Assembly: GCA_004293445.1 (NCBI GenBank)
Contig: RDYP01000004.1
Span: forward strand, 124,001 to 188,000
Direction: 5' to 3'
DNA length: 64,000 nucleotides
Origin: Verrucomicrobiota bacterium
GTDB taxonomy: Bacteria > Verrucomicrobiota > Verrucomicrobiia > Verrucomicrobiales > Akkermansiaceae
Part shown: positions 29,957 to 51,364 of the stretch, one piece after another
How positions within the stretch are numbered: the stretch's first letter is position 1
Layout of the letters: the number at the start of each line of letters is the position of its first letter
Notes under the pieces: model-generated
The model's input: only the letters and a program-made list of their open reading frames with translations
The model's database searches: none
What the model was told of the DNA's origin: nothing
Program-made: the position numbers and the translations under genes

Positions 29957-32900
29957 TCACTTCCCGAGCAGATAGGCAAGCAGATCCTTCAACTCGTCGG
30001 GATTCAGGCGATTGATCAGCCCCGGCGGCATAGGAGAGACCGGCGACTGGCGCTTCTCCTTGATCGATCCCCGCTCGATTTCAACGGTCTGACTGAAGTC
30101 GAAAGCACTCGTCGCCACAATCCAGTGCTCGTCCTTTTCATCAATCAATTTGCCGGTCACCTGGCTGCCATCGGTGCGAGTGATCAAATCAAACGCATAC
30201 TGGTCGGACACCACCTTGCTCGGCTCCAAAATCGCCTCCGCAATGTCACGCGCGGTGAACCGTCCACCCAGCGCCGTGAGATCCGGACCCGCGGCTCCGC
30301 CCTCGCTGCCAAAGCGATGACACGCGGCACAAAGACTGGCCTGATACATCCGCTTGCCGTTCTCAAGATCCCGCCCGCCCAAGCCACTCTCGGCAAGCGT
30401 CACCACCTCGTCGATCGTCCACTCACGACCCGGCCCCTTCGGTTGCGGGATGTTGGCGAAAGGATTAGCAACGGCACCCGCATCGAGCTTGCCAATCCAC
30501 TCCCGCTCTTCGGCCGTCGCCGTCGCCAGCGTCTCCCGCTTCAGATCCTCGATGAACCCGCCATAGCTCGCTCCCCCGCTCTTTCCCGCGAGCCTGCCGA
30601 ACCATGCGAAGAAACGTTCGCGCTCGTCCCGACTCCACGGTCCCTTCACCATCCTCAGGCAGTAAATGTAGTGAATGATCTGAGCGGGAGGAAGATTCGC
30701 AATCATCGCCTCCACCGTCTTGCCATACTGCGCGTTGCGCTTGGCCAGCGCCAACCAATCAGGAACCGGAGTCGGCCCGGCGGAATCCATCAACGCCAGG
30801 GTCCGCCCCACCACCCCAGGAGCCTGCAAATAGGCAAGCAAACGGCAGAGCTCGCGGTCGACCGCCGGCTGGCCGGAAGGGTAAGCAGCATCGATTTTCG
30901 ACAGCACAGCGGCGCGCGCTCCCGGAGTCGGCCCGCCGTGACGAATGAAGAGCAAGCCATAAGCCCGCAGCGCATTGATCCGCTGAGGCTCCGACAGCTT
31001 GGCAAAGTCCAGCTTGCCGAGCGCTCCGAGCACGGCATCCGCATCGGAAGCCCCGTCGTAGCGGCCCACCTTCCATGCCTTGCCCGAGCCATCGTGCGGC
31101 CCGGCATCGGCCGGCAATCCTTCCGCCAGCCCACCCGCACGGGCCAGCGCCAGCGCGCCACCGATGATCCGCCACGGATCGCTCTCGTCCGCCAGCTTCG
31201 AGCGGATTTCAGCCACGGGACCCGCTTCCAAAGCAACCCGGCCCTGATAACGAAGCATGCGGTCGTCCGATCCCAAATTCTCCCACGCCTTGGCACGATC
31301 GCCCAATTCCAACTCCTTGTTCGCAAAGGCCACCGGCGCGACCGATTCACTCCCGCGGTAGGTCACCCGCCAAAGCGCGGAATCCGTGCGACGCCCGCCA
31401 GTGAGGAAATACATCGCCCCATCGCGCCCCATCGCCGCATCCGTCAAAGGCAGCCCGCTCCCCGCGACAAACTCTTCCCGCCGCGCTTTGTAACCCGCTC
31501 CATCAGGGCTGAGGTGAATCGCATGAATGGTCGCATAGGTCCAATCGAAGGCGTAGATCGCACGCTGGTAACGCTCGGGAAATTTCGCGCCCTTGCCCGA
31601 CAGCACACCGGTCGGCGACCCCGGACCGATGTCCAACTGCGAAGGCATGCTGTCTTCATAATACTCCGGCCATTTGCCCGTCCCGTTGCGCCATCCGAAC
31701 TCCGAACCCGGCACGACATGGCAAATCCGCGTCGGCCGATACCATGGCATGCCCAAGTCCCACTCCATGTCGGAGTCGTAGGTGAAAAGATCCCCCTCGG
31801 GATTGAAGGCGACATCATACTGGTTTCGATACCCCACCGAAAAGAGCTGCCAATGAGATCCGTCGGGACGGAAGCGAACGATGAATCCACCCGGAGCCAT
31901 CCGCTCGCGAGCATGGCCGCGGGCATCCGGACGACGCGGCAGAAGCTGATCTTCCATGAAACGGGTCGAGACCAGCGAGGAGTCAAACTCCGGGCAGTCC
32001 GTGTGATTACCCGCAGCGAAATAAATCCACTTCCCGTCGGGCGAAGCCACCAAGGCATGTGGCCCGTGCTCCCCACTGCCATGGAAAGCCTTCATCAATT
32101 CCGCCTTGTCCGGATCGCCGTCGCCATTGCTGTCCGTCACTCGCCAGACTCCCCTCTCGGAAGGACCCTCGTTGACCGTAACATAGAGCGATCCCTCGTG
32201 CCACAGAAGCCCATGAGCTCCACGCAAAGGAATGTCCATGGGCTCGATCGCCGTCAGTTCTTCTCCCGCCGCAGCTGGGGTGACGCGATAAAGCTGGCCA
32301 TACTGATCCGCACAAATCAGCCGCCCTTTGGCGTCGACGGTCATCGCCACCCAGGACCCCTGGGGCTTGGGAACCTGGTAAAGTCGTTCGAGCCGGAAAC
32401 CCGGAGCCACTTGGTAGCGATCGGTCATATCCACCGCAGAAGCCGGACCCTGACCTTCAGGTGACAAGACAGGCCCCCAAGGCGCATCTCCCATCTTGGC
32501 AACCACCGTCACCTTCGGCCAGGCCGATACAGACAGCGCCGGGTCCTGCCAGTTCTCGGGAACTTCGGAAGCGCAGTGCCAGTTTCCGTCCGACATCACG
32601 TAAAATTTCCGCCCATCCTTCAGCGTCGCGCGAAAACGCAGCACCATCCCCGCACTCGATCCATCGTTCCGACCCTCGACCGCCAGGACGTTGCGGCCAC
32701 CCTGCTTGATCTTCCCGGTCACATCGTAGCCCCGAGGATTCGCCCAGTCGGCACTGAAACCGAGATCCTGCCCGTTGATCCAAACCCGGCTCCAATTGTC
32801 GCAGGCCACCGTAAGCGTTGCTCCCGCAACCTCTGCCGGCAGTTCGAACTCCCGCCGGAAAAACACTCTTTCATTCGACCCTGCTTGCGCAGTCCTCCAA

Positions 32901-47229: not shown

Positions 47230-48261
47230 TTAGAGAGAATCGAGCAGGCCGGGCACGGTCGCTTCGAGCGAGGCGAGCAGTTCCTGGCCGGTGGCTCCGG
47301 AGCGGAGGTTCAGCAAAGGAAGCAAGCCGGCGGCGGCGATGGCTTCACCATCGGCGGCAAGGCGGTCGCGGAGGGCGGAAGAGATGATGGCGGGATGTTT
47401 GGTGGCTTGGCCGGGCTCGGGCAGGACATCGAGCAAGGTCTGGACGAGCGACCAGAGCGGCGGCCAGGAGATCCAGCGGGGCAGCGGAGTGCCGGCGGTG
47501 AGGAATTGCCAATCGGCGGCTTTGATGTGGTAGCGGCGGGAGCTGCCGCATCCGTGTTTCCCCCGGGGACGGAGCGTGGTCTCGCCGGTGAGTACATGGC
47601 CGGAGAGCGCCATTTCCTGAAGTAGGAGCTGCATGGTGCGGGCTTTGTAACCGGTGAGGCGGGCGATTTCCGATGGATGCGCGGCGGGGCCGGTGGCAAG
47701 GCAGAGGATGACTTCGGCACGGGCGCTGGTGCCGATCAAGGCGCGGAGAGAAAGCAGCAGGTTGGGCGGCAGCGTGGGATTGGGGGCGCGGCTCATGCCC
47801 CGAACCTGAATGAGCGGACGGAGGATGCCGCGCTTGGCGAAGATCGGATCGGGATCGGACGGGGTGGCACCATCGAAGAGCGACACGGGTTCGGCTTGGC
47901 GTGCGTCGTTCTTGGTGAAGTCCTTCCATTTCGCCTGGCCTCCCTGGCTGAAGAGCCAGTCGGCGATGGCGGCGAGGATCACGGGATCGCCGAGGCCGGT
48001 ATCGGCGTGCAGGGTCTTGAGGCGTTGCAGGTGGAGGCGGGATGCGTGCTGCGAGAGCCAGTCGAGGCATTCATCGAAGAGACGCGGATCGTGTTTCCCG
48101 ATGCGGGTGGTGGCGAGCAGCAGCGCCTCGGGATCGATGATCGTGCCGGGCTCCGCCGGGCGCGAATATCCCGCGACTCCGAGGCTGCACCACTGCCGCC
48201 ACAGGAGATCGAGCGCCGCATCGAGACAGCGTTTTCTAAAGTTGGTCAGCGATTCGTTCAT
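47230..48261 (-). CDS. Winged-helix protein paired with a nucleotidyltransferase
   Basis: A 343-residue cytosolic protein. The first half is helical with no recognised motif. Around residues 180-260 lies a winged helix-turn-helix-like segment (PSEIARLTGYKARTMQLLLQEM, shown in part as PSEIARLTGYKARTMQ, followed by GHVL and a basic hairpin). Its start lies inside the upstream gene: the stop of the nucleotidyltransferase is 26 bp downstream of this ATG, so the two are co-translated. No family name is known to me. The pairing resembles AbiE-type antitoxin plus nucleotidyltransferase modules, but no homology was tested. Confidence 0.6.
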   Translation of the reverse strand: MNESLTNFRKRCLDAALDLLWRQWCSLGVAGYSRPAEPGTIIDPEALLLATTRIGKHDPRLFDECLDWLSQHASRLHLQRLKTLHADTGLGDPVILAAIADWLFSQGGQAKWKDFTKNDARQAEPVSLFDGATPSDPDPIFAKRGILRPLIQVRGMSRAPNPTLPPNLLLSLRALIGTSARAEVILCLATGPAAHPSEIARLTGYKARTMQLLLQEMALSGHVLTGETTLRPRGKHGCGSSRRYHIKAADWQFLTAGTPLPRWISWPPLWSLVQTLLDVLPEPGQATKHPAIISSALRDRLAADGEAIAAAGLLPLLNLRSGATGQELLASLEATVPGLLDSL

Positions 48262-48826
48262 AGCCCATTTGTTTCAATGCGTCGCGGACGATAGCGGGGA
48301 AGACTTCACCGGAATCCTGAGTGAGCACCCAGCAGGCGGCGGCAAGCAGTTCGGGATCGGTGGGTGCGAGTGCGGCGAGGTCGGTGACATGCCGGCCCAT
48401 CCCCTGATCCACGGCGGCGAAGAGCTTGAGGTGAATCAGGTCGTAGCGGTCGGGTAGGTAAATCGTCAGCCGGGGGCCGTAGCTTCGGGAGGTGAGGCGT
48501 TCCAGAAAACCCTCGGGCAACCCGGCGAGCACTTGGTCGGCGGGACCAGTGTTGAGCCAGTTTTCCTGAAGATCGTATTCCCGTGCCACGCGCAGCGCGG
48601 CGGTGCGCAGGGCATCCGACATCGGGCGGGGATCGACGAGGCCTTTCCGCAAATCCACTCCCGCCATGATGTCGGCATCCCGCGTGGTGCGAGAGATCAG
48701 CCCCAGCGCGAGCAAGGCGGAGCCCCCGATGAGGACGAAGCTCTCCGGATCCGCGTCGGCTTCATCGAGGAAGGCAGCCAAGGCGGAGAAGGCTTCATTC
48801 AAAATGTCGCTGGAAATTCGGTTCAT
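48236..48826 (-). CDS. Nucleotidyltransferase-like protein (DUF6036/AbiEii-like)
   Basis: A 196-residue protein with the nucleotidyltransferase-fold start VLIGGSALLALGLISRTTRDADIM: the GGS helix turn followed by a DxD pair (RDADIM), the usual metal-binding arrangement. Later blocks (PDRYDLIHLKLFAAVDQG, HVTDLAALAP) match antitoxin/toxin nucleotidyltransferases annotated DUF6036 or AbiEii-like. It precedes and overlaps the winged-helix gene by 26 bp. It may modify RNA, or act as one half of a toxin-antitoxin or defence pair. Upstream DNA is AT-rich (48840-48880), a likely promoter area. Confidence 0.75.
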   Translation of the reverse strand: MNRISSDILNEAFSALAAFLDEADADPESFVLIGGSALLALGLISRTTRDADIMAGVDLRKGLVDPRPMSDALRTAALRVAREYDLQENWLNTGPADQVLAGLPEGFLERLTSRSYGPRLTIYLPDRYDLIHLKLFAAVDQGMGRHVTDLAALAPTDPELLAAACWVLTQDSGEVFPAIVRDALKQMGYERIADQL

Positions 48827-48944
48827 GCAGGCGGCGAGTAATGCGAAATTTAAATACGTTTTATCCGCGAATTATTTTTAATGTCAATCCAGAATCCAGA
48901 TGCCCGGAATGGCCATAGTTGGGGTGTCTTCTTGAGGGGGATCA

Positions 48945-49203
48945 TCAGAGTCCGAGGTCTTTGAGGTGGTTGGTCATTTTTCCCCGGACGCTGGCGAGCT
49001 GGGATTCGAGGGTGGCGCGGTAGGCGTTTTTCTCGACAGTCTGGAAGGACTTGTGGGTGGCGACAATCTTTTCAAGGTGCTCTTCGGTGAGGATGTTCTG
49101 GTTTTTCGCGTCCTTGAAGTCGCGTGAAGCATCGATGAAGAGGACGTCGCCATGCGTCTTGCCCTTGTTAAAGAGCAGGATGGCGGCGGGGATGCCGCTA
49201 CCC
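48945..49203 (-). pseudogene. Remnant of a type I restriction methylase (hsdM)
   Basis: An 85-codon fragment with a stop at 48945. It reads GSGIPAAILLFNKGK, then VLFIDASRDFKDAKNQNILTE, in part the HsdM motif block GTGIPAAI, then EKIVATHKSFQTVEKNAYRA. It jumps directly to ESQLASVRGKMTNHLKDLGL, the typical HsdM C-terminus, so an internal deletion of perhaps 100-150 codons is likely. Upstream of 49203 similarity ends. There is no start codon in a plausible context, and no hsdS or hsdR beside it. It cannot be a working methylase. Confidence 0.8.
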
Positions 49204-49444
49204 CGGGCTGCTTTCGAGCGAATCTTGCAACCCCAACGTGGATTGCCTCGGGGCCGGACTTACCGACACAACTGGCATGAGTGGGCTCATTGCATTCTCC
49301 ACGCGCGGATCACACCGATGCTCGCAAGCCCCGTGAAACGCGAAGCCATCGTCCACGCCGCGCAGGGCTTAGCCCGAAGAGTCGCTTGCCAGAACTCGGG
49401 GCACTTCCTTAAGATTCAAGCGTGCCACCGGAACTTTGCCCCCG

Positions 49445-49531
49445 CCCCTCGTGTTGCCTTTGCAGGTGCTTATGCAACACACCGCCGAAGCACCGGCGAA
49501 GTAAGCGCACTGCGTGATAACACTGTTAGGC
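49445..49531 (+). other. attC-like recombination site
   Basis: The core gttaggc (49525-49531) matches the integron R' consensus GTTRRRY, six bases before the next ATG. Left (49451-49471, gtgttgcctttgcaggtgctta) and right (49501-49523) arms are imperfect complements and would fold into an imperfect hairpin capped by cgccg/cggcg (49483-49498). The expected R'' box on the left is degenerate (gcccctc). The layout is attC-like, but no integrase is seen. Confidence 0.5.
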
Positions 49532-49536
49532 CAAAA

Positions 49537-49890
49537 ATGAAGAAAATTGGAATAACATCCACCGGCAGCGTAATCGTCGAGATGACCACGCTAGAGTTCG
49601 ACGCCCTACAGCAACTTCAGGTCGGTGGATCGCGCCCGGCAGCGAAGGTTGTCGCCTGCACTGAAATCACCCCAAAGATGAATCATGCCGAGAGGTCGTC
49701 CTATGTGGCAGAGCGATTGAAGAAGCTCAGTCCGAAGAAAAAGGACGGAGTGATTCGCTCGATAGAGGCGATGTTTCAGTTCGGAGGCGGTATTGATTCC
49801 TCAGAGGTTCAGAAGGTCATTTCGACTCTCCAGAGACAGAAATTCTTTTCGATTACTCCACAAGGTCGCGTCACCTACGCCAAGGGCTAA
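49537..49890 (+). CDS. Cassette-like hypothetical protein
   Basis: A 117-residue protein from ATG 49537. The DNA has lower GC than the core. The ORF begins six bases after the gttaggc core and its TAA stop lies inside ggctaac (49885-49891), which resembles the R'' box of an attC, so the ORF fills the unit exactly, as in an integron gene cassette. The N-terminus is MKKIGITSTGSVIVEMTT, and the C-terminal half is helical (AERLKKLSPKKKDGVIRSIE). No family is recognised. The frame extends upstream to 49051, which is not coding-like. Confidence 0.6.
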   Translation: MKKIGITSTGSVIVEMTTLEFDALQQLQVGGSRPAAKVVACTEITPKMNHAERSSYVAERLKKLSPKKKDGVIRSIEAMFQFGGGIDSSEVQKVISTLQRQKFFSITPQGRVTYAKG

Positions 49891-49962
49891 CAAGCCGCGT
49901 ACTGACAACCATTACCAGCGGTTCAGTTTCGATGATTTACCCTGACCTCAACCTCAACCCTT

Positions 49963-49990
49963 AATCGACGCTCGCACTCGCGGACAGCGG
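49963..49990. repeat. Spacer motif copy 1 in the small-protein cluster
   Basis: The sequence from aatcgacgctcgc to acagcgg matches a second copy at 50752-50779 at about 20 of 26 positions. Both lie just before a small exported-protein gene. Confidence 0.35.
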
Positions 49991-50017
49991 ATCTCACTCT
50001 TTGACGTTCACCCCAGA

Positions 50018-50416
50018 ATGCCCACGACAATGCGTTTTATTATACTCTTCATCACCTTTCTCGCTTCTCCTCACGTTTGGGCCGAGCAAAAGCCACTAAC
50101 CGCAGAAGCACTACTCAAGGGGTGCGAATATACCTTGCTCATGGCCGAGGGCAAAAAACTGAGCGCCGAGGAAATGGCACTCTCCGCACGGGCAACCTCT
50201 TACGTCGATGGCTATATCGATGCGATTGCAATGGCCCAAGGTATCAATCCAAACTTCCAATTTACTGACGTGAAGCAGGAGAGGAAGCTGGCGACTTACA
50301 TCCGGGAGATCGCTGAGTTCATTCGTAAGACCCCGCAGGTCCGAGAACAAGCGACGGCTCGAGTTGCTTTGATGCTTGCCCTCAAAGAGAGCCATCCGCC
50401 GGAACAAAAGCCCTGA
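50018..50416 (+). CDS. Small exported hypothetical protein
   Basis: A 132-residue protein; ATG 50030 is an alternative start that gives a cleaner signal peptide (MRFIILFITFLASPHVWA). The mature part is helical and charged (LSARATSYVDGYIDAIAMAQG). The final 40 residues are basic/helical. Codon use is AT-richer than core genes. No family is recognised. It is the first of three small exported proteins in a row. Confidence 0.6.
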   Translation: MPTTMRFIILFITFLASPHVWAEQKPLTAEALLKGCEYTLLMAEGKKLSAEEMALSARATSYVDGYIDAIAMAQGINPNFQFTDVKQERKLATYIREIAEFIRKTPQVREQATARVALMLALKESHPPEQKP

Positions 50417-50425
50417 CTCGAAGAA

Positions 50426-50671
50426 ATGAAAGGACTAGCCAAGGCCGGCATTTGTTTGGGAACTGCGGCAATACTCTTGTCATGCAAGCCCTCGGAAGAC
50501 TCAAAATACGATTCTGGTTACGATGATGGTTACGCTGAAGGCTACAACACCACGCTCGCTATTCGAGCCACGATCGTGAAGGGGGATTGGGGTGATGAAT
50601 CCTACTCCCGAGGATATAAAGATGGACGTGCAGAAGGAGTAAGAGACGCGCTTGCAGAGAAAACTGAATAA
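50426..50671 (+). CDS. Small lipoprotein with Gly-Tyr repeats
   Basis: An 81-residue protein 9 bp after the previous gene. The N-terminus ends in LLSC, a lipobox, so the lipidated Cys is near residue 20. The mature part repeats GYDDGYAEGY and later SRGYKDGRAEG, a G-Y/D spacing seen in DUF-type surface peptides. Overall only about 60 mature residues. No family or activity can be assigned. Confidence 0.6.
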   Translation: MKGLAKAGICLGTAAILLSCKPSEDSKYDSGYDDGYAEGYNTTLAIRATIVKGDWGDESYSRGYKDGRAEGVRDALAEKTE

Positions 50672-50751
50672 GCTCGAACAAGACGAGACACGGCATCCCT
50701 TATCAACCGCCCCATTTCAATGCTCTCCCTTAATTTAAAATCCACACCCGT

Positions 50752-50779
50752 GATTGACGCTCTCCCCCGCTGATAGGAG
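50752..50779. repeat. Spacer motif copy 2 in the small-protein cluster
   Basis: Matches copy 1 (49963-49990) at about 20 of 26 positions around gacgctc. Copy 2 also contains a local stem cgctc/gagcg. Copy spacing is about 790 bp. Confidence 0.35.
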
Positions 50780-50804
50780 CGAGTGCTGTTTCACGCTCGA
50801 AAAA

Positions 50805-51296
50805 ATGACAATACCGCTCGGCGCGTTGATCCTGATTCTTTCCGCATTGTCACTGCACGCGACGCCGCAGGCGGGTGACTCGCTTGTCTTGGCGAAAGGC
50901 AAAAAAGTCTGGGTTCACAACTTTGCCTTGAGTGCTCCTGCGGACAAGAAGCTCGACGCTTGGAAGGATGCGAAGGGTTACAGCGGCGTGGGTTCGACGG
51001 CGAATTACGATGGCTTTTATGCGAGCCTCGAACTCCGGGAGGGTAAGCTTTTCCTCACCAAGCTGGAGGTTGATGCCCATTCCGAGAAGAGAGGCTTTTT
51101 TGAAGATGAAGTGCCACTGTCCCACATCTTCGGGCAGAAAGACGCAGTGCCCGCCGATTGGTTTTCGGGAGAGCTCTGGGAGTTCTTCGGTGAGGCCAAG
51201 GGCTACACGCACTACAAGTCAGACGCGAGAATCTACCGGATCGAAAAAGGGCATCTTGTGAAGACGACGGAGAAGAAGGCGGCCGAGCTGAAGTAA
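50805..51296 (+). CDS. Small exported hypothetical protein
   Basis: A 163-residue protein from ATG 50805 with a signal peptide (MTIPLGALILILSALSLHA). The mature part has no recognised fold; segments such as GFYASLELREGKLFLTKLEVD and WEFFGEAKGYTHYKSDARIY are mixed alpha/beta. The frame is open to 50754 but that part is not signal-like. It is convergent with mutS. Confidence 0.55.
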   Translation: MTIPLGALILILSALSLHATPQAGDSLVLAKGKKVWVHNFALSAPADKKLDAWKDAKGYSGVGSTANYDGFYASLELREGKLFLTKLEVDAHSEKRGFFEDEVPLSHIFGQKDAVPADWFSGELWEFFGEAKGYTHYKSDARIYRIEKGHLVKTTEKKAAELK

Positions 51297-51364
51297 CAGC
51301 CCAAAATGCTGACTCCATGTGCGTTCAATGAATCGACGTCACAAGACACCCATGCTCCCCTTTT

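Follow-up and report, generated by a model that had tools for sequence, protein, structure and literature searches.

A probable degraded chromosomal integron that retains its attI site in a bacterium of the Akkermansiaceae

We describe a low-GC locus in a Verrucomicrobiota genome that we believe, with a probability of roughly 0.86, to be a degraded chromosomal integron, namely a CALIN (attC sites clustered without an integron integrase) that kept its attI. Such a locus would be ordinary in kind. It lies within the 64,000-nt stretch of DNA analysed here (the window), and the 117-aa ORF at its left end appears, judging from the sequences around it, to be the gene of an integron cassette with its own attC behind it and GTT cores on both sides. 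This reading is carried by the homology of the two sites to integron sites, by the junctions themselves, by the scattered homologues of the gene and by the fact that no intact integrase gene (intI) was found.

Results

The ORF occupies positions 49537-49890 of the plus strand. The first-pass annotation had placed a GTTAGGC core ahead of the ORF and its stop codon inside a GGCTAAC box, and both positions were confirmed: GTTAGGC lies at 49525-49531, the ATG at 49537, and the stop codon (49888-49890) falls within GGCTAAC at 49885-49891. The gene is indeed lower in GC than the core genome, as had been claimed, with 51.4% against 62.6% outside a low-GC island (48850-51300) that is flanked by a nucleotidyltransferase gene and by mutS, the latter named from its sequence. 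With 56 copies of GTTAGGC in the 3.35-Mb genome, or about one per 64 kb, the boxes could by themselves be due to chance. Read backwards, these letters have 676 occurrences, a strong skew that perhaps reflects codon and base composition only. GGCTAAC is moreover partly coding, as it encodes a conserved C-terminal Lys-Gly-stop, and relatives retain AAGGGCTAA or AAAGGCTAG at the equivalent stop. Further to the left, a six-frame reading revealed the C-terminal part of an N-6 DNA methylase gene (48946-49194, minus strand; Pfam N6_Mtase, E 4.5e-12 over 63 residues), a remnant that sits near the place where intI would be expected. We also observed that, within 47230-48826 of the minus strand, an AbiEii/DUF6036-type nucleotidyltransferase gene overlaps a 343-aa ORF without a match to any Pfam family; the two could be a toxin-antitoxin-like pair.

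The left junction is formed by an attI-type site. An imperfect dyad had been noted to the left of the GTTAGGC core and interpreted as an attC-like hairpin; the dyad exists, and the element that contains it (49448-49531, plus strand) matches attI instead, with the core TAACACTG^TTAGGC and the crossover between 49525 and 49526. The attI model used here (R2) was built from five other sites with the window left out, two from this genome and three from the same family that lie beside integrase genes or their remnants. Its sole match in the 64-kb window is 49448-49531 (23.5 bits, E 1.5e-4), a score far weaker than those of the other two places matched in the whole genome (91.5 and 85.8 bits; three places in all). 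The site is also the top-ranking one among about 128,000 positions in a 20-nt attI core profile derived from 12 loci. The sequences preceding the first cassettes on two other contigs (C28 and C47) share 92% identity with each other, and the dyad has a similarity of 54 to the attI on C28 (null 16.7 +/- 3.4), the best of 5326 sequence windows. Throughout the phylum, loci that bear intI have a motif, AATAA(C/A)ACTGTT, between that gene and their first cassette, and in relatives from the same family the attI element follows a same-orientation intI after 107-110 nt. Based on the model match and the first rank in the core profile, we conclude that the dyad is an attI-type site and that the cassette starts at the TT of the core. 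As an attC end, the dyad ranks only 1973 of about 128,000 and is silent in the covariance model, and this interpretation was rejected. So was that of a dispersed REP-like repeat, since the genome holds three copies and each precedes a cassette locus. At 31.7 kb, a weak resemblance to attI falls in coding sequence and was attributed to chance. Covariation in the attI palindrome is weak (the score is beaten by 1 of 500 shuffles, and doubly changed pairs are not unusual), so that a hairpin and double-strand binding sites are indistinguishable by this measure. In family f1 (loci L144-L163), attI carries an imperfect palindrome inside which a second one is nested, and one of these loci (L156) retains the attI palindrome though its sequence is largely different. 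A search for copies of this attI in plasmids returned none.

The right junction is a decayed attC. Because a covariance model punishes broken pairs, attC ends were also scored as plain sequence, using a two-ended profile of 70 attCs that allowed one indel and was drawn entirely from other genomes, with the window excluded. Among about 128,000 positions, none scores higher in this profile than 49885 as a start and 50012 as an end, and together they reach a pair score of 34.5, compared with 21.1 for the next best pair. The stretch 49885-50012 also scores 60 in an alignment with the sequence downstream of a homologue of the gene in genome G190 (null maximum 47.5) and 54.5 in one with L104, a typical attC of 126 nt (null maximum 47), and it carries one inserted base. 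These end ranks and alignments indicate that GGCTAAC opens a decayed attC of 128 nt (plus strand; R'' GGCTAAC, R' GTTCACC) that gained a base. The structure model (R1), built from 39 attC sites in arrays beside integrase genes and with a clearly covarying L stem, finds attC in 74 of the 142 genomes of the order and at two sites in this genome, on C28 and C47. At 49885-50012 it gives 2.1 bits, which is why the attC looks decayed, and it finds no attC above noise in the 64-kb window; its best match there (47731-47767, 11.9 bits) lies in a coding region, lacks the L stem and was discarded. The attC search that the first-pass annotation had named as a check thus gave a divided answer: the structure model is silent in the window, but both halves of 49885-50012 take first place in the sequence profile. 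In complete integrons of the phylum, the boxes of attC follow the patterns GSCNAAC (R'') and GTTNGSC (R'). When complementary RYYYAAC/GTTRRRY boxes were strictly required instead, not even genuine arrays gave a match, because R' is part of the following cassette and the boxes here have the forms just given.

The unit does not end at 49891, as had been supposed, since the attC continues to 50012; the cassette proper (TTAGGCC ... attC ... G) spans 49526-50006 on the plus strand and is bounded by the attI and attC cores, with junctions at 49525/49526 and 50006/50007. Cassettes beyond this first one are probable. Five bases after the attC core begins the ATG of a 132-aa ORF (50018-50416, plus strand), which has a weak Rap1a-like Pfam match (17.6 bits, under the cut-off of 27.7), no relative among 387 genomes and none found in viral contigs. 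It is closely followed by an 81-aa ORF with a lipoprotein-like start (50426-50671, plus strand), and the two would make up a probable second cassette. A possible second attC, tentative and heavily decayed, lies at 50673-50765 (plus strand); its 5' half scores 0.8 (rank 164) and its 3' half -2.7, and its similarity to the first attC is 56 (shuffle maximum 48.5). Finally, a 163-aa ORF of low GC and without a family (50805-51296, plus strand) is possibly the last cassette gene, and no attC was identified behind it.

The 117-aa gene has four homologues in other Verrucomicrobiales, three of them intact (82, 77 and 67% protein identity), while the copy in G190 is frameshifted. Orthologues are not found in a fixed context, an outcome in keeping with the first-pass proposal: neighbours differ among all five loci, window included, and in four of the five a core of the GTT type, once CTT (GTTAGGC, GTTCGCC, GTTGTCC and CTTAGCC), stands 5-6 bases before the ATG. 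The context of the homologues varies from the junction outward, and identity figures for the short flanks are too noisy to set the boundary alone. The Haloferula luteola copy is likewise preceded by an attI-like core. Behind the stop codon of the nearest homologue, in a Prosthecobacter MAG (L038), no attC was found. At that locus (L038:4780-5480), the gene is flanked on both sides by a copy, about 95 bp long, of a gene end and immediately precedes a gene for a T4SS-like ATPase; it may have moved by another route.

With respect to its product, the gene has a dN/dS of about 0.1 compared with its relatives and has therefore been kept for its protein. That it belongs to no known family holds for the curated families searched, none of which matched above the cut-off, and a PDB search returned no sequence relative. 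The C-terminal half is predicted to form three helices and a hairpin in a winged-helix-like arrangement; the AlphaFold model (pLDDT 62) was too poor for a fold search. This C-terminal part also has remote matches, in a protein with a PIN domain and in a NERD-like one. Our guess is that the small product is winged-helix-like and has a role related to nucleic acids.

An intI above the family cut-off was not found in this genome (49 contigs, 97.4% complete), so an intact copy could be absent from the assembly only, and a six-frame reading of the expected place at the window locus revealed no IntI-like sequence. One contig end carries a remnant of intI (C19:6-272, minus strand), which is truncated and frameshifted, with its 5' part missing and the contig end cutting through it. 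It reads RKWPNATREL..WQYLF and, in the other frame, RHHLHE... (26 more letters), includes an IntI-specific segment and resembles the intI of another genome (G535). In addition, two further attI loci with cassettes and without intI are present, on C28 and C47. Together with the frameshifted fragment, they point to a system that formerly worked in this genome. The C28 locus (L081, about 269,990-272,400) comprises attI and at least two cassettes, one encoding a small membrane protein and one an endonuclease/exonuclease/phosphatase-like protein (named from sequence only); at the C47 locus (L082, about 30,900-32,540), one cassette encodes a protein with NYN and OST-HTH/LOTUS domains.

Across the phylum, an integron integrase above the family cut-off is encoded by 79 of 288 Verrucomicrobiota genomes. 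The family attI model detects 18 sites in eight of 117 genomes, at one to five per genome; beside these, intI is near-complete at three loci, preserved in large part at two, fragmentary at two and lacking at 11, within flanks of at most 1.5 kb that are in some cases cut by contig ends. This palindromic attI, with as many as five copies in one genome and usually no intI beside it, is mildly new, and a narrow literature search found no description of this attI.

Discussion

We propose that an integrase, later lost from the locus, would have recombined a circular cassette, through its folded attC, with the chromosomal attI, cutting between the G and the TT of the core. This would have left attI (49448-49525) and the first cassette with the 117-aa gene and its attC, probably followed by one or more others, all within the stretch of low GC next to mutS, where the cassettes are probably fixed now. 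We infer both this recombination history and the loss of mobility. The central idea of the first-pass annotation, a cassette without a local integrase, is borne out, with no intI above the cut-off genome-wide and junctions that fit attI and attC; placement by an IntI-type enzyme, also proposed there, would agree with these junctions.

The same arrangement could have arisen in trans, if a lone attI that never had a neighbouring intI was loaded by an integrase encoded elsewhere in the genome. This would be in line with the 11 of 18 family attI loci that lack intI within the stretch examined, and with one genome (G528) in which four solo attI sites coexist with two intact intI genes on other contigs. 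However, four loci (L144, L148, L152 and L163) carry truncated intI genes or fragments exactly where a neighbouring intI would lie, which favours decay in place over service in trans at such loci, and only a broken intI remains in the genome studied here. On balance, we regard insertion in trans as unlikely. Somewhat more doubtful still is the broader proposal that integrons of this family use their palindromic attI, of about 82 nt, as several stand-alone copies, such that one integrase elsewhere loads many sites and the window holds a landing pad, not a ruined integron.

It is very improbable that an integrase chose a non-classical genomic site (attG) and that the left sequence is merely chromosome. 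Cassettes are known to enter genomes by insertion at attG (Loot et al. 2024, as cited in PMC12901181), but the left sequence is not arbitrary, since the attI model (82 nt) and the attI core profile both match it. Least probable of all is that an ordinary, horizontally acquired small gene happens to be flanked by look-alike boxes: single boxes are common, one is partly coding and the structure-based attC model is silent, yet two independent site models and the core profile pick the same two junctions as the best in 64 kb, and the context of the homologues changes from the junction outward.

A degraded chromosomal integron thus being the preferred reading, the locus can be compared with known systems. 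CALINs are by default called from a minimum of two attC sites (IntegronFinder 2.0, PMC9024848) and are thought to be degraded integrons or off-target insertions (PMC8618304). Like them, the window has cassettes with attC and no neighbouring intI, but its attI is still recognisable, and its attC sites number at most two and are too decayed for the structure model, so the default two-attC rule would probably miss it. Similarly, the chromosomal integron of Treponema lost intI in T. phagedenis, where attC sites can outlive it (PMC3607928). There, as in the relatives from the present family, intI reads in the same direction as the array, although Treponema belongs to another phylum, its attI is a different one, and the genomes here can hold attI in several copies. 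Complete Verrucomicrobiota integrons (G560, G535, G088 and G140) share the attI core AATAA(C/A)ACTGTT and the attC style with the window, but they combine intact intI with well-paired attCs. In terms of a complete integron, attI is present at the window locus and an intact neighbouring intI is absent.

Taken together, these results show that an orphan cassette can still be traced via its attI when decay has put its attC out of reach of structure models. Moreover, the family-specific attI model makes it possible to test, within one clade, whether CALINs originate by loss of the integrase in place or by insertion in trans.
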